A stretch of 64,000 bases of DNA. Source: Cytophagales bacterium. Its GTDB lineage: Bacteria; Bacteroidota; Bacteroidia; Cytophagales; Cyclobacteriaceae. Where the stretch lies: positions 124,001 through 188,000 of the forward strand of contig JAKSDQ010000158.1 in the NCBI GenBank assembly GCA_022360015.1, read 5' to 3'. Under the pieces are notes generated by a model. That model searched no databases. It saw nothing but the letters and a program-made list of their open reading frames with translations, and had not been told where the DNA came from. A program made the position numbers and the translations under genes. Below, piece after piece: positions 4,516-42,319 of the stretch. Within the stretch, counting starts at the first letter, position 1; each line of letters opens with the position of its first letter.

Positions 4516-7500
4516 ATGATTCCCCAACCTGCCCCCAACATAGCTAGTTGGCTGTTCGGAATTGTGCTGCTTTCCATTGGCCTGGGAGGCTGTGATTCCG
4601 GCAGTTCCGATCATAAATCTGTGGAAGCAAATGCCATGGGTAGTCAGTCCGATTCACTGAAAACATTGGCAGCTAAGCCAATGGGTGAAGTATACACCCA
4701 TCCATATCTTATAAAAGCTGACGAAATCAGGGATAAGGAGGGTTTCACAAATGCCATACCTTATTACGAGGCGGCAGTTTCATTGTTTGAGAAAGACGGG
4801 AATTGGGAGGGCTTGATTTCTGCGAAGAACAGGGTTTCTTCTTATTACGCTGACAGGAGCTATTATGACATCTCCTATTATGACAGCCTGTTGATAAACT
4901 TAGAAAATACATGGGAATTAGGAAAAAAGTATCTGGAATCCACGAGTTTATCATTTTCGGAAATTCAATATTGGTTTGGAAAGTATTTTGAGGAAACAAA
5001 TGATCCTTACCAATCGATATCCTTTCATCAAAAAGCCTTGAACAACAGGGTTAAGCAACTCGGCAACAATAACCTGTTAGTTGCTGAAAGTTTAAAAGCG
5101 CTTGGTGATGTTTATTTTTACCAGCTTTCGGATTATAACAATGCCGAAAATTTTTATGAAAGATCGGTAGACATTAAAAGCCAACTACTAGATAGTGCCA
5201 ATGTAGATCTAATCCGTGGTTATTATTCCATGGCAAGAGTTAAAAGGTTAAATGATGATACTGAAAGTGCCATTAATTACGGATTAAAGGCATTAAAAAT
5301 AGCGATGATGAATCCAATAGAAAACAAGCAACGGATTGGGTTATGTCATAATGTTTTAGCCAATATCTATAATGACAAAAATGACTACAAAAATGCGGAG
5401 TTACATTACCAAAAAGCCATTGAAATTTCAAAAGCCAAATTTGGCGAAAACAACCATGATTTGCCCATTTATTACAATGGATTAGGAACAATTTTTTTAC
5501 AACAAAAAGAGCTTGGATTAGCCAAATCATATTTCACTCAGAGCCTTCATATAAATGAAATGTATTTCCCTGATGATTTGGATGAAATTGCTGATAACTT
5601 TACGAGTTTGGGATTGGTTTACACACAACTAAAATTGTATGACTCCGCATTGATATATTTCAATAAAAGTTTAGAAATAAAACTAAAACAGTTTGGCACA
5701 AAAAATGCCCGAACCGGGTTAATTTATGAATTTTTAGGTGATATGTATGCTGATAAGGGACATCTGGAGATGGCGCTGCAACACTATCAAAATGCCCTGA
5801 TTAGCATAGTCGGAAATTTTAATGAAAATGATGTTTTCGTCAATCCGAAATTTTCTTCACAGGTACATGGATTTAGATTCGTTCATGTAATAATCAGCAA
5901 AGCCCTTTTATTAAAGCGGTGTTATCATGAAAGCCATAATATCAAATATCTTGAAGCCTCTTTAAAAACTTATTTACTGGCTAATAAAATAATTGATCGA
6001 AAAAGAAACAATGATATTACCGAAGAGTCCCGGCTGGTGTTGATTGAAAATCACTTTCAGGATCAAATGGAAAATGGAATCGATTGCGCATTTCTATTGT
6101 ATCAACTAACCGGCAAGCCTGAATTTCAAAATACGGCATTCCAATTGATCGAAAAAACAAAATACATGTTGCTTTTTGAATCATTAATAAAAAATAAAAA
6201 AAATCAGCAATTTGGAGTCCCGGATTCTCTTTTAGCACTGGAAAAAAACCTAAAAGTTGAAATGGCATTTTTCAAACAAAATTTAGACGAATTACTACAA
6301 GACGAAAATTTGAATCAACAACAAGTCGATAGGTTACAAAATAAGGTTTTCAGCACCGCAGTTAAGCAAGAAAAACTGTATAAAAAGCTTAAAGACGAAT
6401 ATCCAAGATACTACGATATCAAATTTGACAGTGTAACGTTGTCAATCAAAGATATTCAAAAAGCGCTGAAGAACAGAGGCGTTGAAATTATTGAGTTTTA
6501 CTATGGGAAAAAAAATATCTATATCTTAAGTATCTCGAATGAAATAATAAAATTTCAAAGATTAGAAAAATCCCAACTATTAGAAAACGCTATAACCACT
6601 TATTTAGAACAAATTTCAAGTTCACCAGATATAACCAGTTTAGAAAACTATAGACGCTTTTGCCAAAGTGCTTCGCAACTTTACGAATTATTAATGAAGC
6701 CAATATTGACCAAGGATTCATTGAATAAAAACCTGGTTATTATTCCACATGGCAGGCTTTCGGTTTTACCCTTTGAGTCCATTATTAAACCCGTTGCAGC
6801 TTACAATAAAGTTGATTACAAAAATTTAAGTTACCTCATCAAAGACCATCAGTTCAGCTATGCCTATTCAGCTAATTTATTGTTTAAAACCAAGACTAAG
6901 CAACAAGCTATTTCCAAGCCAAAAATACTGGCCTTTAGCTACTCCAATGAATTCCACAAACCAAAAAATCGGGATGAAATAATTGGTTCATCTAAGGAAA
7001 TAAATACTATCTCAAAGTTTGTAAAAGGTACCTTTTACAAAGGACAGTATGCCACTGAATCCACTTTTAAATCAACGGCTTCCCAATTTGACATTTTGCA
7101 TTTGGCGGTACACGGAAGGGCTGACGATGAAAGTAAATTAAGTAACAGGCTATTATTCAAGAATGAACTTGACTCCACCAATGACGGGGTATTGCATTCC
7201 TATGAGGTATTAAACCTGAATATTGACGCTAAACTCGTAGTTCTGAGTGCCTGTGAAACAGGATTAGGACAGCAGTTTAAAGGAGAGGGAATTTTTAGCA
7301 TGGCAAGGAGTTTTGCCTATGCGGGATGTGAAGCAATTATTATGAGCTATTGGAAAGCAAAGGATAACGCAACTGCTGATATAATGGGAAGCTTTTACAA
7401 GTATTTGGTTGATGGAGCAACGGTTGATAAAGCGCTCAGGAAAGCTAAGATAACCTTTATTAATGAATCTGAGGAGCTTACCGCCCATCCTTCAGCCTGG

Positions 7501-7644
7501 GCAGCTTTTGTACCATTTGGAGATATGAGTACCCCAATTTTTCAGAACCAAAATGCAAGTGCTGAAGTATTGGGGTATTTCTTCCTGATTAGTGTGATCA
7601 CCTTAATACTATGGTACATGGCAAAAAACAAAGCGTTTAAATAG
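4516..7644 (+). CDS. TPR-CHAT caspase-like lipoprotein 1
   Basis: Predicted cysteine peptidase of clan CD with a large TPR sensor region. A lipoprotein signal ends in GLGGC (Cys26). Residues 60-470 contain repeated TPR helices (ALNNRVKQLG, YNGLGTIF, YFNKSLEIKLKQFG types). About 560-650 is a coiled linker, and the CHAT domain covers roughly 720-1010. The catalytic pair is intact: His866 in HLAVHG and Cys913 in LSACETG. A hydrophobic segment at about 1015-1035 precedes a short basic tail, so the peptidase probably faces the periplasm, anchored at both ends. A paralogue follows at 8371, and an ECF sigma operon converges on the pair. Codon use resembles the neighbours, with a slightly AT-richer middle. 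Substrate unknown. Confidence 0.88.
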   Translation: MIPQPAPNIASWLFGIVLLSIGLGGCDSGSSDHKSVEANAMGSQSDSLKTLAAKPMGEVYTHPYLIKADEIRDKEGFTNAIPYYEAAVSLFEKDGNWEGLISAKNRVSSYYADRSYYDISYYDSLLINLENTWELGKKYLESTSLSFSEIQYWFGKYFEETNDPYQSISFHQKALNNRVKQLGNNNLLVAESLKALGDVYFYQLSDYNNAENFYERSVDIKSQLLDSANVDLIRGYYSMARVKRLNDDTESAINYGLKALKIAMMNPIENKQRIGLCHNVLANIYNDKNDYKNAELHYQKAIEISKAKFGENNHDLPIYYNGLGTIFLQQKELGLAKSYFTQSLHINEMYFPDDLDEIADNFTSLGLVYTQLKLYDSALIYFNKSLEIKLKQFGTKNARTGLIYEFLGDMYADKGHLEMALQHYQNALISIVGNFNENDVFVNPKFSSQVHGFRFVHVIISKALLLKRCYHESHNIKYLEASLKTYLLANKIIDRKRNNDITEESRLVLIENHFQDQMENGIDCAFLLYQLTGKPEFQNTAFQLIEKTKYMLLFESLIKNKKNQQFGVPDSLLALEKNLKVEMAFFKQNLDELLQDENLNQQQVDRLQNKVFSTAVKQEKLYKKLKDEYPRYYDIKFDSVTLSIKDIQKALKNRGVEIIEFYYGKKNIYILSISNEIIKFQRLEKSQLLENAITTYLEQISSSPDITSLENYRRFCQSASQLYELLMKPILTKDSLNKNLVIIPHGRLSVLPFESIIKPVAAYNKVDYKNLSYLIKDHQFSYAYSANLLFKTKTKQQAISKPKILAFSYSNEFHKPKNRDEIIGSSKEINTISKFVKGTFYKGQYATESTFKSTASQFDILHLAVHGRADDESKLSNRLLFKNELDSTNDGVLHSYEVLNLNIDAKLVVLSACETGLGQQFKGEGIFSMARSFAYAGCEAIIMSYWKAKDNATADIMGSFYKYLVDGATVDKALRKAKITFINESEELTAHPSAWAAFVPFGDMSTPIFQNQNASAEVLGYFFLISVITLILWYMAKNKAFK

Positions 7645-7734
7645 CTCTTGTGCCTGTTGTAACAACTTTCGATGCTAATGTCGATGATGAAGCTTCCTTT
7701 TTTTCCCAAAAAGAAAAGCGAACAACCGGTGTAT

Positions 7735-8148
7735 TCAGGGTGGGCAAAGTAACCTGTCAACGGCTTTTTTGAGTGTTCTCTCAATATCCTTCTCGTCCGT
7801 TTCTTTGGTCAATTTGTCCAATTCTTTTGGATCAAGCTTTAAAAGTACCTTCGCAAAGATATTCAGGTTTTTGGTAATGGGATGTTCGTCGATTTCCTTT
7901 TCGTTTAAAACAACATCTGTCGCTAACTCTATTGTAGCCTTAGAGCCATTTTGGCCTGTAATCACCTTGGCATTTTCATCTATTTTGAATAATACCGGAC
8001 TTCCAAATGTGAGGGTTCTTGAAACATTATTCTTTAAATAAACAATCTCCTTACATCTGCCAAACTTATCAAGTTCCTCGGCTATAATTATTCCATACGG
8101 TTTTTCCCTTGAATTCATCTTCGGGTCTTTTATAAATCCTTTGGCCAT
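7735..8148 (-). CDS. hypothetical protein between the two CHAT genes (137 aa)
   Basis: No family recognised. There is no signal peptide or membrane span. Residues 12-75 look like a beta-rich, OB-fold-like stretch (YGIIIAEELDKFGR, RTLTFGSPVLFKI), and the C-terminal half is helical and highly charged (Lys/Glu rich), ending in CPP. It sits alone on the minus strand between the paralogous TPR-CHAT genes and ends 90 bp from the end of CHAT gene 1. It is therefore likely to have been captured with the duplication, or to be part of the same functional block, but that is inference only. Confidence 0.6.
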   Translation of the reverse strand: MAKGFIKDPKMNSREKPYGIIIAEELDKFGRCKEIVYLKNNVSRTLTFGSPVLFKIDENAKVITGQNGSKATIELATDVVLNEKEIDEHPITKNLNIFAKVLLKLDPKELDKLTKETDEKDIERTLKKAVDRLLCPP

Positions 8149-8370
8149 ATTTGGTAAATTTAGATTAATAGTTCTTTTCCAGTTATTTCATTAAATTCGA
8201 AATCCTTGAATTACCTTAATTAAAAAAACATCAAATGGTAACCCATCTTACATAACCCGCGGTCGAATATAAAAAAAATCGAACAATTAAGCCACTAAAT
8301 ACCAAATACTTGATTTTCATCTTCACCCCAAACTTTCTATTTTTATCTTCAGAATTAAAAGCTTTTCAGA

Positions 8371-11300
8371 ATGGGTTACAGTTGCCGTGATATCAGGGTA
8401 GGATTATACTATATTTTTTGCTTGTTTGCCATTCCCGGTGTTTTTTTAGCATGCAGAGATCATGGCGATCAAATTTCAAATAAGGATAAAGTTTCAATCA
8501 AAGAAGACACTGTAATGATGGATAATTTTGATGACTACAGCCATCCTTATCTGACCAAAGCACTCTCCGTGCAGAAAGAACAAGGCCGCCGGGCAGCGGA
8601 GGAGTTTTTCATTGCGGCACTTTCATTGTATGAAAAGGAAAAAAACTGGATCGGTTATGCCAAAACAGCCATCAGGCTGGCAAAAAATTACAATAACCCC
8701 GTTGACCGAAAGAAAACAGCTCCGATACTTCGAAAAGCAATGGGCTACTGGGTGAAGCATAATGGGAATAATAACAGCATTGCCGCGGACTTACATGAGA
8801 AATTCGGGGACTACTTTTATTATTCAAATGAGGCGGATAGTGCCTTAACCCACTATTCAAAATGCCTGCTTACGAGGGAAAACATCTATGATAATAACCA
8901 CCTGAAACTAGCCAATATAAACCATAGGCTCGGTAATTTGTATCGTTGGAGGTTGAATGAGTATTACAATGCCGATAAGTATTACACCAGAGAATTGGTC
9001 ATCAGGGAAAACGCTAAAGATACGGTGGCAAAAAACTTTTCTTATTGTTATTACAATCTCGCTGTGACTAACAGAGTAAAAAATGATCATGAAAAGGCCC
9101 TTATTTATGCCAATAAAACCCTAGACTTTCTTAACAAATATGACAGTAGCAATCATGCCATACGAAAAAGGTGTTTTAACGTGCTTGCAAACATCTCCAA
9201 TGAAATAAAAGATTTTGAAAATGCCATATACTATTACAATCAGACAATTGGGTTAAGTACAGGTCAAAAAGATCCTGGTTCAGTAAACAGTCTGGCTCTT
9301 TACTATAATAACCTAGGGACAGTATACCGACAATTAAACCGCCCCTCCACAGCCATCAAGTATTATGATAAAGCACTTCTCACCTATCAAAGCAATGCGA
9401 ACCTAGCGGGACTTGCAGACACCTATAATAAGCTTGGCATCGCCTATATAGATTTAGGAAATCTTGATTCCGCATTTTATTTTATCCATAAATATGTGGA
9501 TGAGACAAAGTCATATTATGGTAAAAAACATTTCAGAACAGCCAAATCCATGATAGTTCTGGCCAAGAGGCTCAGCAGTGAAACTTCTTTGTTGGATTCG
9601 GCGCTTACCACTGCCCACCTCGCCTTGATTTCGGGTTTAAACAATTTTAACCAAAAAGACCCTTTGGTTGTCCCTTCTTTAGCGGAAATGGAATATAATT
9701 TTTATCTTATCGATGCACTGAAATCCAAAGGGCAGATTTTAACTAAAATGGCTACTGAAAATGATTTGAATCCTAAATTGCTTAAGGGTGCCATGGATTC
9801 ATTTTTATTGTCTGACAGCCTGATCACTATTGAAAGAGGAAATTTTGGCATAGAAAATTCCAAATTATATCTAGCCAATGACTACAAATCCATTTATGAG
9901 CACTCCCTGGAGTGTGCCTATGATTTATATTATATCACGCAAGAGGAGATTTACTATCAATATGCCTTTAATTTTATGGAGAAAAGCAAATCCCGGCTGT
10001 TATTGGAAAATCTGGAAAACATAGAAACTTTGAATCGAGCCGGGGTTTCGGAAGAAGTGAAAATTTTGGAAAGAAATCTGAAAACGGAAACTGCTAACCT
10101 CAATAGTGCTTTAAAAAATGAAAAAGAAAAACCTTATCCTGATTCACAAAAAATCAATTTGATTAATCAAAAACTCTTTGGTTTAAGTACAAAAAGGGAT
10201 TCCCTAACCACTTTTTTATCCACTAATTTCCCACAATATTTTAACATTAAATACAAACATAAAAATTACCCTATTGCCACCGTTCAATCCTTGATCGATG
10301 ATAAATCGCTGGTTGAATATTTTTGGGGTGATTCAGCCATTTACATGTTATCCATCACCCGTCAATCGGTTCAATTTAAAAAAGTGTCAAGGGATTCGGT
10401 TTTTATGAATAAGTTCAATAATTATTTAAAATTAGTGTCAAATCCACAGGTCAACCTGGTTGATTCTACCATAAATCTTTCTTCCTGGTTATTTGATAAA
10501 TTGTTATCCTCTGTCCTGAATAAGCCCATGGACAAACCGGGCAATTTGATTATTATCCCCGATGGTCCGCTAGCTTATCTGCCTTTTGAAACCCTCATTA
10601 CAAAAAACGATGGTCTGAAAAAACCGAATTTCAAAACCGCTGATTACCTGCTTTATGACTGGACGATCGGCTATGTCTATTCCACAGAGTTATTGTTTAA
10701 CAAAAATGTAAAAGAAAAAAAGAGGGCTTTAAAGCTATTAGCATTTAGCTACTCTGACAATACAATGCGATCGACTATCATGAACGAGGGAGAAAGTTTG
10801 GTTCATATTCAGGGAAGTGCCAAAGAAATCGAAGCGATAAAGTCATTAATAAATGGCAGGTTTCTCAAGGGGGAGGAGGCGACGGAAGCACAATTTAAAA
10901 ACCTGGCACCTGGATTTGACATCTTACATCTTGCAATACACGGATCAGCTAGCAAAGGGGATAGTATCGATGCCAAATTATATTTCAGGGATCAATCTCA
11001 TGAATCAGAGGATGGCATATTATACCCTCATGAATTATATAATTTAAATTTGGGTGCCGACATGGTGGTGTTAAGTGCGTGTGAAACAGGGTTGGGAAAT
11101 TACAAAAAGGGCGAAGGTGTCTTCAGTATGGCCAGGGCCTTTGCCTATGCAGGCTGCCCCTCTATCGTAATGAGTCTTTGGAAAGTTAATGACCAGATTA
11201 CCGCACGTATGATGAAGGATTTTTATAAGAACTTAAATAAAGGACTTGAAATCAATACCTCCCTGAGGTATTCCAAATTAAGTTATCTGGATAAAGCTGA

Positions 11301-11466
11301 CGAACTTACGGCCCACCCTTTTTATTGGGCGGCTTTTGTGCCCATTGGGCAATCAAAAGTCATTGCGCCTCGTAACTATTTGTATTGGATAATAGGATCT
11401 TTGGTTGTTTTACTTGTTGGCTTAAGTATAAAAAAATTTATGAGCGCTTCTTCAGCAGGGCATTGA
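8371..11466 (+). CDS. TPR-CHAT caspase-like lipoprotein 2
   Basis: Paralogue of the product at 4516. A signal peptide ends in VFLAC (lipidation at Cys28). It then repeats the HPYLxKA motif seen at the same place in paralogue 1, followed by TPR helices to about residue 430, a coiled segment near 545-620 and a CHAT domain at about 700-990. The catalytic pair is His857 (HLAIHG) and Cys904 (LSACETG), both present. A transmembrane helix at about 1000-1020 precedes a short basic cytoplasmic tail. The topology suggests a periplasmic peptidase. The gene converges with the lipoprotein/peptide/anti-sigma/sigma operon immediately downstream. Both copies look functional, so they may differ in what their TPRs sense. 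Confidence 0.88.
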   Translation: MGYSCRDIRVGLYYIFCLFAIPGVFLACRDHGDQISNKDKVSIKEDTVMMDNFDDYSHPYLTKALSVQKEQGRRAAEEFFIAALSLYEKEKNWIGYAKTAIRLAKNYNNPVDRKKTAPILRKAMGYWVKHNGNNNSIAADLHEKFGDYFYYSNEADSALTHYSKCLLTRENIYDNNHLKLANINHRLGNLYRWRLNEYYNADKYYTRELVIRENAKDTVAKNFSYCYYNLAVTNRVKNDHEKALIYANKTLDFLNKYDSSNHAIRKRCFNVLANISNEIKDFENAIYYYNQTIGLSTGQKDPGSVNSLALYYNNLGTVYRQLNRPSTAIKYYDKALLTYQSNANLAGLADTYNKLGIAYIDLGNLDSAFYFIHKYVDETKSYYGKKHFRTAKSMIVLAKRLSSETSLLDSALTTAHLALISGLNNFNQKDPLVVPSLAEMEYNFYLIDALKSKGQILTKMATENDLNPKLLKGAMDSFLLSDSLITIERGNFGIENSKLYLANDYKSIYEHSLECAYDLYYITQEEIYYQYAFNFMEKSKSRLLLENLENIETLNRAGVSEEVKILERNLKTETANLNSALKNEKEKPYPDSQKINLINQKLFGLSTKRDSLTTFLSTNFPQYFNIKYKHKNYPIATVQSLIDDKSLVEYFWGDSAIYMLSITRQSVQFKKVSRDSVFMNKFNNYLKLVSNPQVNLVDSTINLSSWLFDKLLSSVLNKPMDKPGNLIIIPDGPLAYLPFETLITKNDGLKKPNFKTADYLLYDWTIGYVYSTELLFNKNVKEKKRALKLLAFSYSDNTMRSTIMNEGESLVHIQGSAKEIEAIKSLINGRFLKGEEATEAQFKNLAPGFDILHLAIHGSASKGDSIDAKLYFRDQSHESEDGILYPHELYNLNLGADMVVLSACETGLGNYKKGEGVFSMARAFAYAGCPSIVMSLWKVNDQITARMMKDFYKNLNKGLEINTSLRYSKLSYLDKADELTAHPFYWAAFVPIGQSKVIAPRNYLYWIIGSLVVLLVGLSIKKFMSASSAGH

Positions 11467-11502
11467 CAGGATCAAAAGACACAATCATCCGAGTATTAAT
11501 CC

Positions 11503-11533
11503 AAAAACAGGTTAGCCAGTAACTGACTAACCT
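11503..11533 (-). terminator. rho-independent terminator after the acidic lipoprotein gene
   Basis: Read on the minus strand, an 11-bp stem with one G-T wobble (AGGTTAGTCAG pairing CTGGCTAACCT, loop of 3) is followed by GTTTTTGG. It lies 23 bp after the stop codon of the 56-aa lipoprotein gene. The same element recurs at 11811-11845. Confidence 0.75.
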
Positions 11534-11609
11534 TCTTACTTGATAGCTTTCCAATCTAATTTTCATCCTTTGGCGGCGGCTCATCATCTCGGGGTTCATC
11601 ATCTTCAGT
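11503..11609 (-). repeat. 107-bp direct repeat, copy 1
   Basis: This copy matches 11815-11921 over 107 bp with a single mismatch (position 11519 against 11831). It contains the last 17 codons, including the stop, of the 56-aa lipoprotein gene and its terminator. The near identity implies a recent duplication or gene conversion. Confidence 0.9.
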
Positions 11610-11726
11610 TGATTGCACTTCAAGGTTAGATGAGTCAGATTTTGGATTGATATCTTCCAGAGAGTCTTCATTGCAAGCCGCAAATGAAAACATTACTATG
11701 ACGAAGGGTAAGATTATTTTTCGCAT
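11556..11726 (-). CDS. small acidic lipoprotein (56 aa)
   Basis: Short gene with ATG at 11726 and TAG at 11556-11558. The product starts with a lipoprotein signal (MRKIILPFVIV...) and lipobox SFAAC, with Cys18 as the lipid site. The mature 39 residues are strongly acidic and end in the tail EDDEPRDDEPPPKDEN. That tail is identical to the end of the 40-aa peptide encoded just upstream in the same orientation, because of a 107-bp duplication. A strong terminator follows. The role is unknown. Its place behind an ECF sigma/anti-sigma pair and opposite two CHAT peptidases makes it a candidate signal or substrate of that system. Confidence 0.65.
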   Translation of the reverse strand: MRKIILPFVIVMFSFAACNEDSLEDINPKSDSSNLEVQSTEDDEPRDDEPPPKDEN

Positions 11727-11754
11727 GTTTTTAATTTTAGGTTGAAAAAATTTG

Positions 11755-11764
11755 GTGTAACTAT
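11755..11764 (-). promoter_or_regulatory. ATAGTTACAC element upstream of the acidic lipoprotein
   Basis: On the minus strand ATAGTTACAC lies 28 bp before the lipoprotein ATG. ATAGTTACA recurs before the ECF sigma gene (13417-13426) and before the small secreted protein (16575-16584), always on the transcribed strand. It is a candidate recognition element for the local ECF sigma factor; this is not proven. Confidence 0.35.
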
Positions 11765-11810
11765 TAAATAAAATTGTGTTTGATTATGTTAAGGTAAACA
11801 TTATGGTTAT

Positions 11811-11845
11811 AAAAAAAAACAGGTTAGCCAATAACTGACTAACCT
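11811..11845 (-). terminator. rho-independent terminator after the 40-aa acidic peptide
   Basis: A 10-bp stem (AGGTTAGTCA-type arm) is followed on the minus strand by nine consecutive T residues. It closes the sigma/anti-sigma/peptide operon 23 bp after the peptide stop codon. Confidence 0.75.
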
Positions 11846-11921
11846 TCTTACTTGATAGCTTTCCAATCTAATTTTCATCCTTTGGCGGCGGCTCATCATC
11901 TCGGGGTTCATCATCTTCAGT
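11815..11921 (-). repeat. 107-bp direct repeat, copy 2
   Basis: This is the second copy of the 107-bp element. It carries the acidic 3' end of the 40-aa peptide gene plus its terminator. Only one base differs from copy 1, although the 5' parts of the two genes are unrelated. Confidence 0.9.
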
Positions 11922-11990
11922 ATCATAACCCATAGTTGCTTCTTCCACCTCATCCTCAGGATCGACAAAGTTTTTATCTTGGTCTAACAT
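11868..11990 (-). CDS. acidic 40-aa peptide in the sigma operon
   Basis: ATG at 11990, stop at 11868-11870, starting 29 bp after the anti-sigma-like gene ends. The product has no signal peptide (MLDQDKNFVDPEDEVEEA at the start) and finishes with EDDEPRDDEPPPKDEN, shared exactly with the neighbouring 56-aa lipoprotein. Almost half of the residues are Asp or Glu. It looks like a real terminal cistron because it is framed by the operon and a terminator. Function unknown; an acidic mimic that binds the sigma factor or the TPR protein is one possibility. Confidence 0.55.
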   Translation of the reverse strand: MLDQDKNFVDPEDEVEEATMGYDTEDDEPRDDEPPPKDEN

Positions 11991-12019
11991 AGTAGTGTTT
12001 ATTTAAGGTTAACAATAAA

Positions 12020-12802
12020 TCATTTGCTTATTTTTTTTAATATCTCTTTGGCCTGCTTGCTTTTAGAGTAATCGCTGTTTTTTACGATAGTAAAAACTTC
12101 TATGGATTTTTCAATATTCCCGGCCTGCAAATATCCAAGGCCCCTGTACCATTGAAGCTGATTCTCAAAATTTCCAGGATTTTCCAGGGCCTTTTCAAAG
12201 GCCTCTATGGCCTTATCAGGTTGCTCTTCGACCAGATACGAATTGCCCAGATACAAGTAAACGCCGGAATCCTTTTCAACCCCAGGTAATTCATTGAACA
12301 TTTTTATAGCCAGTGAATAATTACCCTGATCATAAACCTGCATCGCCTGCTCAAAACTGGTTTGCACGGTTGATTTACCCCTGGTGGTGGCGCTCATCAC
12401 ATTATCGTATGTTTCAAAATATGCCTGGTAAATATCACCAGGAGCGGATCTGTGATTGAAAAGGAAAATACTGCTTACTGCCAATATGACCACACTTGCC
12501 GCTGCCATCAACCAATACCTTCTGTTCCGCATCGGCACCGCCTTTTCTTCCTCCTGATCATCATCGACATGTTCCTGCCAATTGACTTCGGGCAGCTTCT
12601 GTTCCAGGTCTTTCAATTGCTGCATCATCTTGTTTCTGGCAGCATATTGTATGCCACCAATCAAAATCCGGACCTGATCGAGTAGCTTTTTGAAGTCATC
12701 TTCACTGGCCAGCCTTTGTTCCACTATCTCCCTTTCCTCAATACCGAGATCATTCTCGATATACCGCTCCAATAACGCTATGTCTTTTTCCAATTCGTTC
12801 AT
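12020..12802 (-). CDS. membrane protein with periplasmic TPRs, probable anti-sigma factor
   Basis: A 260-aa single-span protein. Residues 1-90 are helical and charged with no membrane segment (MNELEKDIALLERYI..., then an acidic DDDQEEE stretch). One transmembrane helix covers about 97-115. Residues 125-260 contain TPR units (QAMQVYDQGNYSLAIKMF, YLGNSYL, AIEAFEKAL) and end in AKEILKKISK. A cytoplasmic N-terminus before one span, encoded 5 bp after an ECF sigma gene, is the standard anti-sigma layout. No zinc-binding HxxxCxxC is present, so it is a non-canonical type. The TPR part resembles the protein at 41495-42061. The binding role is inferred from position and topology. Confidence 0.72.
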   Translation of the reverse strand: MNELEKDIALLERYIENDLGIEEREIVEQRLASEDDFKKLLDQVRILIGGIQYAARNKMMQQLKDLEQKLPEVNWQEHVDDDQEEEKAVPMRNRRYWLMAAASVVILAVSSIFLFNHRSAPGDIYQAYFETYDNVMSATTRGKSTVQTSFEQAMQVYDQGNYSLAIKMFNELPGVEKDSGVYLYLGNSYLVEEQPDKAIEAFEKALENPGNFENQLQWYRGLGYLQAGNIEKSIEVFTIVKNSDYSKSKQAKEILKKISK

Positions 12803-12807
12803 GTTTC

Positions 12808-13368
12808 TTATACGGTATTCATTGTCCTTTCTTCAAAAATCTTTTTTAGCCTTTTCATGCATTTATACTTTTGGTTCTTGGCAGTATCCGTATTTTTATA
12901 ACCCAGGCTTTTTGCAATATCAGTCATCGACTTTTTGTGATAGTAATACATTTCCAATAAACCCCGGCAAGGCTCACCCAAAAGGTGCATGCAGTGCTCC
13001 ACCAGTTTCAGCGTGGCCTCCTGCTTCTCAACATCTTCTGTTGGCTGATCTTCATTCATTAAATCCATGGTTCCATCCATATTATGAGTAAATCTGGTGG
13101 CGAACTTTTTTTGTTCCAGCATCTTATTTTTTCCAATGGCAAATAAATAAGACTTTATACTGCTGGTCATTGTTGTCAATCTTCCGTTGATGATATTCTC
13201 ATAAAATATCATGATCGCTAACTGATAGACCTCTTTTGCTTCCTCTATGTTACAACTATAGGTCCGGATTATCCAGGAAATAAATTCTTGACGATACTTT
13301 TCATATATGGTTCCCAACTCACGTTCATCTCCTGTTTTTATCCTCGCAATGACGTCGTTTTCACTCAT
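12808..13368 (-). CDS. ECF RNA polymerase sigma factor
   Basis: Sigma-70 family group 4 protein of 186 aa. Region 2 (about residues 15-90, with YEKYRQEFISWI and EEAKEVYQLAIMIFYENI) recognises the -10 and core enzyme. Region 4 (about 125-180, GLLEMYYYHKKSMTDIAKSLGYKN followed by AKNQKYKCMKRLKKIF) is the helix-turn-helix for the -35. There is no extra C-terminal domain. It heads an operon with the anti-sigma-like TPR protein 5 bp downstream. An ATAGTTACAT element lies 48 bp before the start codon and may allow autoregulation. The two TPR-CHAT genes converge on this operon. Confidence 0.88.
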   Translation of the reverse strand: MSENDVIARIKTGDERELGTIYEKYRQEFISWIIRTYSCNIEEAKEVYQLAIMIFYENIINGRLTTMTSSIKSYLFAIGKNKMLEQKKFATRFTHNMDGTMDLMNEDQPTEDVEKQEATLKLVEHCMHLLGEPCRGLLEMYYYHKKSMTDIAKSLGYKNTDTAKNQKYKCMKRLKKIFEERTMNTV

Positions 13369-13679
13369 CTAAGTATACTTAATGGATTGATGGAAAAAAG
13401 GTAACCTTATTTTCAAATGTAACTATTTTTAGAATGCTGAAAATTACAATTCCCGGAATTTTAGGAAGAATACCTCATTTCATTCACCGGGTAATTTTGT
13501 ACAGTAACACTTTAATTAGCACAAATTAACGAAGAATGTTCAAGATATTTGTACATTTTCAATATTAAATTTTGAATAATCATTAAGTTACTGATTTTTT
13601 CAGAAAGCTAATAAGCCAGTTTCCCAAAATCTATGAATCGCTCACTGATGCTACCAACCTGGCTGGGAATGGCCCTTTG
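13369..13679. other. upstream region of the ECF sigma operon
   Basis: About 310 bp between the sigma gene start and the end of the flavoprotein gene, both transcribed leftwards. It contains the candidate ATAGTTACAT element and is otherwise AT-rich. I see no ORF with credible composition and no RNA gene. Confidence 0.5.
13417..13426 (-). promoter_or_regulatory. ATAGTTACAT element upstream of the ECF sigma gene
   Basis: Minus-strand ATAGTTACAT starts 48 bp before the sigma ATG, and a second GTTAC lies 11 bp further downstream. It shares nine bases with the elements at 11755 and 16575. It is a possible autoregulated ECF promoter. Confidence 0.35.
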
Positions 13680-41494: not shown

Positions 41495-42061
41495 TCACAA
41501 CTTTTTCAGAATTTCTGCGGCCTTGTTTTTGTAGGGTAAGTCGGATGACACAATCGCTTTAAATAGCTTCTGAGCTTTTGCCTTTTGACCTGCCTTTACA
41601 TAGGCCAGACCGAGGTACCACGCAGATGGGGCTGAGAAAGCAGGATCGTTTAATTGCATCACCTCCTGAAAATCAGCGATAGCAAATTCCGTATTTCCCG
41701 ACGCAAGCTGACAAATGGCATAATAAAACTGCCATGTGGTATTGCCCGGATCGTCAATCACTGCCTCCTCAAACTTTATCATCGCCGCCTTATAATTTCC
41801 ACTTTCGTACAGGTCCATAGCATGGCGGTATTTCTGGTAATCATATCCGTCACCAGTTTTCAAAACATTAGTAAAAGGCTGGAAATAAACCTGATACAGA
41901 CTTACTCCGGATGCTTTGTTACCAAAAATCAAATGTGTTACCGCCCATAAAACAGCAACCGTCATTATCACGGTTAGCAGTCGCACCAATCTGCCAGGGG
42001 TACGGAGGTTTGCCAGTTCAACCTCCTGACCGTTATTTTTTCTTTCTAAAGATGATTTCAT
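41495..42061 (-). CDS. membrane-anchored TPR protein, paralogous to the anti-sigma TPR region
   Basis: Start taken at ATG 42061 (MKSSLERKNNG); an in-frame ATG 15 codons earlier is less credible. About 188 aa: short polar N-terminus, one span (LLTVIMTVAVLWAVTHLIF), then TPRs (YRHAMDLYESGNYKAAMIKFEEAV; AWYLGLAYVKAGQKAKAQKLF) ending in AAEILKKL. The YQVYFQPFTNV after the span and the ending match YQAYFETYDNV and AKEILKKISK of the product at 12020, but the cytoplasmic N-terminal domain is missing. No sigma gene is adjacent. Confidence 0.78.
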   Translation of the reverse strand: MKSSLERKNNGQEVELANLRTPGRLVRLLTVIMTVAVLWAVTHLIFGNKASGVSLYQVYFQPFTNVLKTGDGYDYQKYRHAMDLYESGNYKAAMIKFEEAVIDDPGNTTWQFYYAICQLASGNTEFAIADFQEVMQLNDPAFSAPSAWYLGLAYVKAGQKAKAQKLFKAIVSSDLPYKNKAAEILKKL

Positions 42062-42319
42062 CGTATTGTAATCATTTGATAAACCTTTAACGGACAAAAT
42101 TAGCATAAAAGTGTCTATTTCATCGCAGTTATGATTTGATTCCTGTAAGAGCCAGATACAATTACATTGATTTTTTTACTTTTGTTGTTTTTTTCACGTT
42201 AATACACCAGATACCGCCAAAGCCTAATTATATTTGCCAACCATATAGCCGCCCGCCTGTATACATTATGGTGACGATCAAATAATAAATAACCTCGTGA
42301 GTCAGTTATTGATTTAATA

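Follow-up and report, generated by a model that had tools for sequence, protein, structure and literature searches.

Two membrane-anchored CHAT peptidases as candidate site-1 proteases of an ECF sigma factor in Bacteroidota

Why would two peptidase-like proteins lie convergent with an operon for a sigma factor and its presumed inhibitor? This question is raised by a locus of a Cytophagales bacterium (genome of 7.3 Mb), contained in the 64-kb stretch of DNA that was analysed as a whole and is called the window here. On the plus strand it encodes CHAT-1 and CHAT-2, each consisting of tetratricopeptide repeats (TPRs) and a CHAT domain, and on the minus strand an extracytoplasmic function (ECF) sigma factor with a one-span anti-sigma factor. 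We propose, and consider it likely, that both CHAT proteins act as site-1 proteases, cutting the anti-sigma factor after Arg141 and so starting the release of the sigma factor. The proposal builds on the linkage of the genes across related genomes and on a strict covariation between one residue of the anti-sigma factor and one residue of the CHAT domain. The features concerned are as follows.

4516-7644, plus strand: CHAT-1, 1042 residues (intact open reading frame (ORF), Pfam, alignment); signal peptide with lipobox (Cys26, LGGC26), TPRs, CHAT domain 722-1003 with Glu828 (S1), His866 and Cys913, C-terminal span 1016-1032
6997-6999, plus strand: codon of Glu828 of CHAT-1, putative acid of the S1 pocket
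8371-11466, plus strand: CHAT-2, 1031 residues (intact ORF, Pfam, alignment, structure model); signal peptide with lipobox (Cys28, FLAC28), TPRs, CHAT domain 707-994 with Glu819 (S1), His857 and Cys904, C-terminal span 1004-1020
10825-10827, plus strand: codon of Glu819 of CHAT-2, putative acid of the S1 pocket on helix alpha1
13368-12808, minus strand: ECF sigma factor, 186 residues (TIGR02937)
12802-12020, minus strand: one-span anti-sigma factor, 260 residues, with a predicted cytoplasmic N-terminal helical domain and periplasmic TPR domain
12359-12418, minus strand: flexible periplasmic loop of the anti-sigma factor, residues 129-148, proposed cleavage region
12380-12382, minus strand: codon of Arg141 of the anti-sigma factor, proposed P1 residue (ATTR/GKS)

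The peptidases and their pairing with the sigma factor

Both TPR-CHAT proteins are intact, and their catalytic pairs (His866/Cys913 and His857/Cys904) are exactly those named in the initial annotation, according to the ORFs, Pfam and the family alignment. The Pfam CHAT model (PF12770; cut-off 24 bits) matches CHAT-1 with 180.9 bits (E 4.7e-53) and CHAT-2 with 189.3 bits (E 1.3e-55), in each case behind TPRs, and the catalytic His and Cys are present in 67/67 and 66/67 aligned CHAT relatives, respectively. Judged from their sequences, the two proteins carry the domain and the His/Cys dyad of CHAT peptidases. In a structure model of CHAT-2, with a mean predicted local distance difference test score (pLDDT) of 84.6, Glu819 is placed on alpha1 after beta1 of the caspase fold, His857 after beta3 and Cys904 after beta4.

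The opposing operon of ECF sigma factor, one-span TPR protein and acidic peptides that had been described is indeed present, and the peptides are real ORFs. The sigma factor passes TIGR02937 (50.4 bits; cut-off 42.9), and the known anti-sigma model NF052375 matches the window's anti-sigma factor weakly (27.6 vs 100 bits). An AlphaFold model of the latter (mean pLDDT 90) consists of a helical N-terminal domain, a membrane helix at 93-115 and a TPR domain at 149-259; a juxtamembrane helix (121-128) and the loop 129-148 connect the last two, and Arg141 lies in this loop, whose confidence falls below the high level of the rest of the model. The sigma gene stands directly upstream of the anti-sigma gene in nearly all loci mapped, and in its modelled topology and conserved pairing the one-span protein fits an ECF/transmembrane anti-sigma pair. 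The window encodes a second TPR anti-sigma-like protein (41495-42106, minus strand, 203 residues, loop Lys-Thr-Gly), next to which no sigma or CHAT gene was found.

CHAT proteins that are linked to an anti-sigma factor begin with a hydrophobic signal and carry a membrane span near the C-terminus. This span occurs in 55/61 linked CHATs versus 12/54 CHATs without a nearby anti-sigma gene (p 4e-14 if the loci are taken as independent, which they are not), and the tail past it is net positive in 125/125 CHATs. Because of the signal peptide and the C-terminal span with its positive tail, the CHAT domain is predicted to face the periplasm beside the membrane, on the same side as the anti-sigma TPRs. 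The periplasmic location suggested before is therefore predicted for essentially all linked proteins. Both window proteins also have the lipobox and C-terminal span ascribed to them, but lipidation is not general among their relatives: the lipobox was matched in only 8/67, many others having a plain hydrophobic signal-like N-terminus instead, and it was discarded as a defining feature.

The linkage was assessed in 59 related genomes by two separate searches, one using only the anti-sigma factor and one only the CHAT family; the top 60 loci by anti-sigma similarity were taken irrespective of CHAT and then mapped. Of these 60 loci, 35 have a CHAT gene at a distance of at most 1.5 kb, versus 1.56 expected from CHAT density (P about 2e-48 under the null of uniform placement). 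None of the 7 genomes that are free of CHAT has a strong anti-sigma match, and 26 of the other genomes have one (p 0.016). Linked CHATs are mostly convergent with the anti-sigma gene, often with touching stop codons. The adjacency of TPR-CHAT, ECF sigma and this type of anti-sigma factor, for which the initial annotation had advised a search, is strongly conserved, an outcome that, like the predicted periplasmic location, favours its proposal, and on these counts the pairing of CHAT with the sigma/anti-sigma genes is a conserved module. Two CHATs on one sigma factor recur in five further loci (L039, L040, L049, L073 and L090), and tandem CHATs within one locus always belong to the same S1 class. 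That such tandems recur in further genera, and that their specificity residues match, fits the earlier idea that two peptidases provide two inputs, without proving it.

Covariation of the anti-sigma loop with the S1 position

The loop of the anti-sigma factors is variable save for one residue, which is mostly an Arg with Gly, Ser, Asp or Asn after it (in the window, ATTR141-GKS); in another group it is the Met of a DPGLxTxM[S/G] motif. When 8 Met-type and 46 Arg-type CHATs were compared, one alignment column, that of Glu819, came out far ahead, with Glu in 46/46 Arg-type proteins and Leu, Ser or Phe in 8/8 Met-type ones. The later test set comprised 40 loci that came from other families within the class, plus 80 named loci that were found by a Met-type query with search patterns that excluded the loop residue. 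The rule was unchanged in these loci fetched after its discovery, and no exception occurred among non-redundant pairs: the loop residue is basic in 50/50 pairs whose CHAT has Glu (49 Arg, 1 Lys) and Met in 65/65 pairs whose CHAT has Leu, Ile, Val, Thr, Ser or Ala at this position. Two rows scored as Glu with Met are a pattern artefact (VMSATTR, VMNATTR) and read by eye as Arg; one more pair, the divergently placed L184, has an unreadable loop residue and stands outside the non-redundant set. Among 294 CHAT columns, that of Glu819 is the sole one with a 100% versus 0% separation.

Columns 819, 941, 902 and 909, which separate the two types best, fall in alpha1, L4 and L5. S1 specificity of clan CD peptidases has been attributed to alpha1/L1, L4 and L5 (PMC4357240), and an alpha1 acid holds the P1 Arg in gingipain R and MALT1. 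The acids at the matching position are Asp163 in gingipain, Asp365 in MALT1 and Asp95 in TbMCA2, and all separases have Asp or Glu there (PMC4626109). Since Glu is also found at this position in all 28 alignable CHATs that are unlinked and lack a span, Arg specificity is probably ancestral. Taken together, the covariation suggests that CHAT cleaves the anti-sigma factor directly, as the initial annotation had supposed, with the difference that the loop, at Arg141, is a likelier site than the TPR domain.

Several observations weigh against this interpretation. First, 29 of 42 anti-sigma factors without a CHAT gene within 8 kb retain the Arg, and Arg as a hallmark of CHAT-linked anti-sigma factors alone had to be given up. 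This retention fits cleavage in trans, but also the action of another protease. Orphan CHATs with a C-terminal span exist in two of the genomes (G001 and G016); replacement of CHAT by other proteases in CHAT-less loci was rejected, the sole peptidase among their Pfam-scanned neighbours being an M20 protein in L057. Second, a single clade of all Met-type CHATs was not rejected (p-AU 0.67 in the approximately unbiased test). Therefore, the pair counts are not independent, and the change from Arg to Met together with that from Glu to an aliphatic residue may have occurred once; two independent switches, hinted at by a quick tree, are not claimed for the same reason. Third, the S1-region test on the four columns (p about 1e-4) was chosen after the columns were seen. 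Finally, gaps in the loop made it necessary to rely on the motif when assigning the P1 residue. What makes the covariation strong is which residues are involved and that they are kept even among highly divergent pairs, rather than how many events occurred.

Two other explanations bear on these points. The Arg or Met might be recognised by a different periplasmic protease or serve for binding, with CHAT docking on the loop or shielding it without cutting, which would agree with the many anti-sigma factors that keep the Arg with no CHAT gene nearby. We regard this as very unlikely, as the catalytic dyad is practically invariant and the covarying residue sits at the position for P1 specificity, which predicts cleavage chemistry. 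Even less credence is given to the view that the covariation simply reflects two ancient clades of operons and that Glu819 is not the S1 residue. Although the single Met-type clade would suit that explanation, Glu819 separates the types uniquely and perfectly from its place on alpha1, the next best columns are also in S1 regions, and Arg-type loci include both gene orders.

The proposed switch and the neighbouring genes

From the genes, their linkage and predicted topology, the covariation and a promoter motif, all of which are observed, we infer the cleavage, the signal, the downstream proteolysis and the regulon of the following scheme. The anti-sigma factor would hold the sigma factor through its cytoplasmic N-terminal domain, as gene pairing and topology suggest. 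CHAT-1 and CHAT-2 would be clan CD peptidases that are anchored in the inner membrane and face the periplasm, and a signal met by their TPR domains would activate them as site-1 proteases. They would then cut the anti-sigma factor after Arg141, in the exposed loop between the juxtamembrane helix and the TPR domain, with the Arg side chain being read by the S1 acid Glu819 or Glu828. Loss of the periplasmic domain would expose the remainder to general proteolysis, probably by an M50 site-2 protease (M50 proteases are present), and the freed sigma factor would activate its own operon and a gene for a 137-residue protein. This gene, the small genes of the operon and the promoter motif are located as follows.

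8148-7735, minus strand: gene of the 137-residue protein, between both CHAT genes and on the strand of sigma
11990-11868, minus strand: acidic peptide of 40 residues without signal, kept in the sister species
11726-11556, minus strand: acidic lipoprotein-like peptide of 56 residues with a lipobox and a duplicated tail
13379-13406, minus strand: motif GGTTACC-N16-ATTAA upstream of sigma, putative autoregulatory promoter
8216-8243, minus strand: motif GGTTACC-N16-ATTAA upstream of the gene of the 137-residue protein

The motif upstream of sigma is kept in two genomes of the genus and in a third from a different genus. Exact matches number two in the window, before sigma and before the gene of the 137-residue protein, and both are kept in the sister species; because both genes carry this conserved upstream motif, the sigma factor probably controls itself and that gene. 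No such motif was found for the CHAT genes on their own strand. The whole genome has eight exact sites, and apart from the sigma operon and the gene of the 137-residue protein, the ORFs downstream of them have no orthologous pair in the sister genome that would extend the regulon beyond the locus. In that sister genome (L291, G001:C2:1104) the motif also stands 42 bases before an ORF of 265 residues, a possible further target.

ECF operons often adjoin their targets, and the CHAT gene shares the sigma operon in several loci. The CHATs might thus be outputs of the sigma factor, periplasmic effectors with no action on the anti-sigma factor, their adjacency reflecting co-regulation. This explanation appears very unlikely, as the motif precedes sigma and the gene of the 137-residue protein and not the CHAT genes, and as it gives no reason for the P1/S1 covariation.

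The gene of the 137-residue protein, missed in the initial annotation, is kept between both CHAT genes in the genus, and its product has a G-F-I-K-D-P motif. It belongs to a family of small proteins with a G-x-I-x-D-P start motif that adjoin CHATs (window 7735-8148, minus strand; L039 12797-13210; L040 9287-9715; L050 8061-8432); short lipoproteins with this motif occupy the same place in L043 and L047. The acidic peptides, one of which has a lipoprotein signal, share identical C-terminal ends of 17 residues and near-identical downstream DNA, and the pair is, on this sequence comparison, a recent local duplication, with a single such peptide in the sister species L039. They are lineage-specific, being confined to close relatives of the window, and were dismissed as core parts, which corrects the initial annotation, where they were alternative CHAT substrates.

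CHATs could nevertheless cut a substrate other than the anti-sigma factor, such as these peptides or the 137-residue protein, and act on sigma only indirectly. Small proteins do lie between the anti-sigma and CHAT genes in the clade to which the window's CHATs belong, and the acidic peptides hold an Arg within an acidic stretch. However, such proteins are absent from the many loci in which the stops of the anti-sigma and CHAT genes touch or overlap, the 137-residue protein and the 40-residue peptide are predicted to be cytoplasmic because they have no hydrophobic signal at the start, and the conserved specificity tracks the anti-sigma loop. Hence we find this alternative very unlikely, and direct cleavage in that loop remains the preferred explanation.

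Other neighbours of related loci are worth recording. In L094 a double-zinc-ribbon/guanylate cyclase/AAA/TPR protein (5157-8441, plus strand) takes the position of the convergent CHAT and overlaps the anti-sigma stop. Soluble CHAT genes without a C-terminal span adjoin ECF sigma genes with other small membrane proteins in L129 and L153, possibly a second sigma-CHAT arrangement. In the Met-type operons of Flavobacteriaceae and Cyclobacteriaceae (L203-L282), a lipoprotein of about 390 residues and a protein of about 820 residues recur upstream of sigma, anti-sigma and CHAT in the same direction and are candidate targets or ligands.

For Bacteroidota as a whole, we hold with moderate confidence that CRISPR-free, membrane-anchored separase/caspase-like site-1 proteases which activate ECF sigma factors are widespread and frequently occur as multiple parallel copies in one genome, and that a single S1 residue, having coevolved with the anti-sigma loop, determines their P1 code, of which there are at least two (Arg and Met). 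No description of this CHAT/anti-sigma system and no substrate of periplasmic Bacteroidota CHATs was found in the literature searched, whose coverage excluded most subscription journals and all preprints outside PubMed Central. CHAT proteins are abundant in Bacteroidota, and the proposal names a concrete candidate substrate, the residue at which it should be cut and a mutation predicted to swap the specificity. If it is true, caspase-fold peptidases join the proteases that convert envelope signals into transcription.

Comparison with known systems

The nearest solved folds of the CHAT-2 model (Foldseek) are Csx29 (8eey, the best), separase and the Myxococcus anti-sigma factor DdvA. In the type III-E CASP system, the TPR-CHAT protein Csx29 cleaves a sigma inhibitor and so frees the sigma factor (PMC10028731). 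The cut in Csx30 falls between residues 427 and 429, and deletion of Met427 abolishes cleavage (PMC10028731), which is reminiscent of the Met-type group. The two systems share a TPR-CHAT peptidase, an ECF sigma factor next door and, in our case as a proposal, a sigma inhibitor as the substrate that is cut in a flexible loop. However, Csx29 is cytoplasmic and activated by Cas7-11 with target RNA, whereas the CHATs of the window are membrane-anchored and predicted to be periplasmic, and their proposed substrate is a one-span TPR anti-sigma factor. With no match to a RAMP protein (PF03787) in the genome and this predicted location, membership in type III-E CASP was rejected; a scan with a defence-system library gave a TPR match only. 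The CRISPR-free analogue of the Csx29-Csx30-sigma switch that the initial annotation had envisaged therefore holds as a similarity in working, suggested by the covariation, and not as membership, and the system offers a CRISPR-free relative for asking how that switch originated.

Separase (family C50) also combines a TPR-like/helical scaffold with a caspase-fold domain, has an acidic S1 residue and cleaves after Arg, as proposed here, but it is eukaryotic, acts on cohesin and has neither a membrane anchor nor a sigma pathway. In Myxococcus xanthus, the transmembrane anti-sigma factor DdvA (PDB 8rot, 8rw5) carries a CHAT domain that matches those of the window, and the ECF sigma factor DdvS is active once DdvA is inactivated (PMC4374960). 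In contrast to DdvA, which unites CHAT and anti-sigma in one polypeptide, the window encodes them separately, with a distinct TPR anti-sigma factor as the proposed substrate. The predicted logic is that of the DegS-RseA-RseP and RasP pathways, in which a periplasmic site-1 cut near the membrane is followed by a site-2 protease that releases the sigma factor. While DegS is a PDZ serine protease, the site-1 protease proposed here would be a cysteine peptidase of the caspase/separase fold with TPRs.

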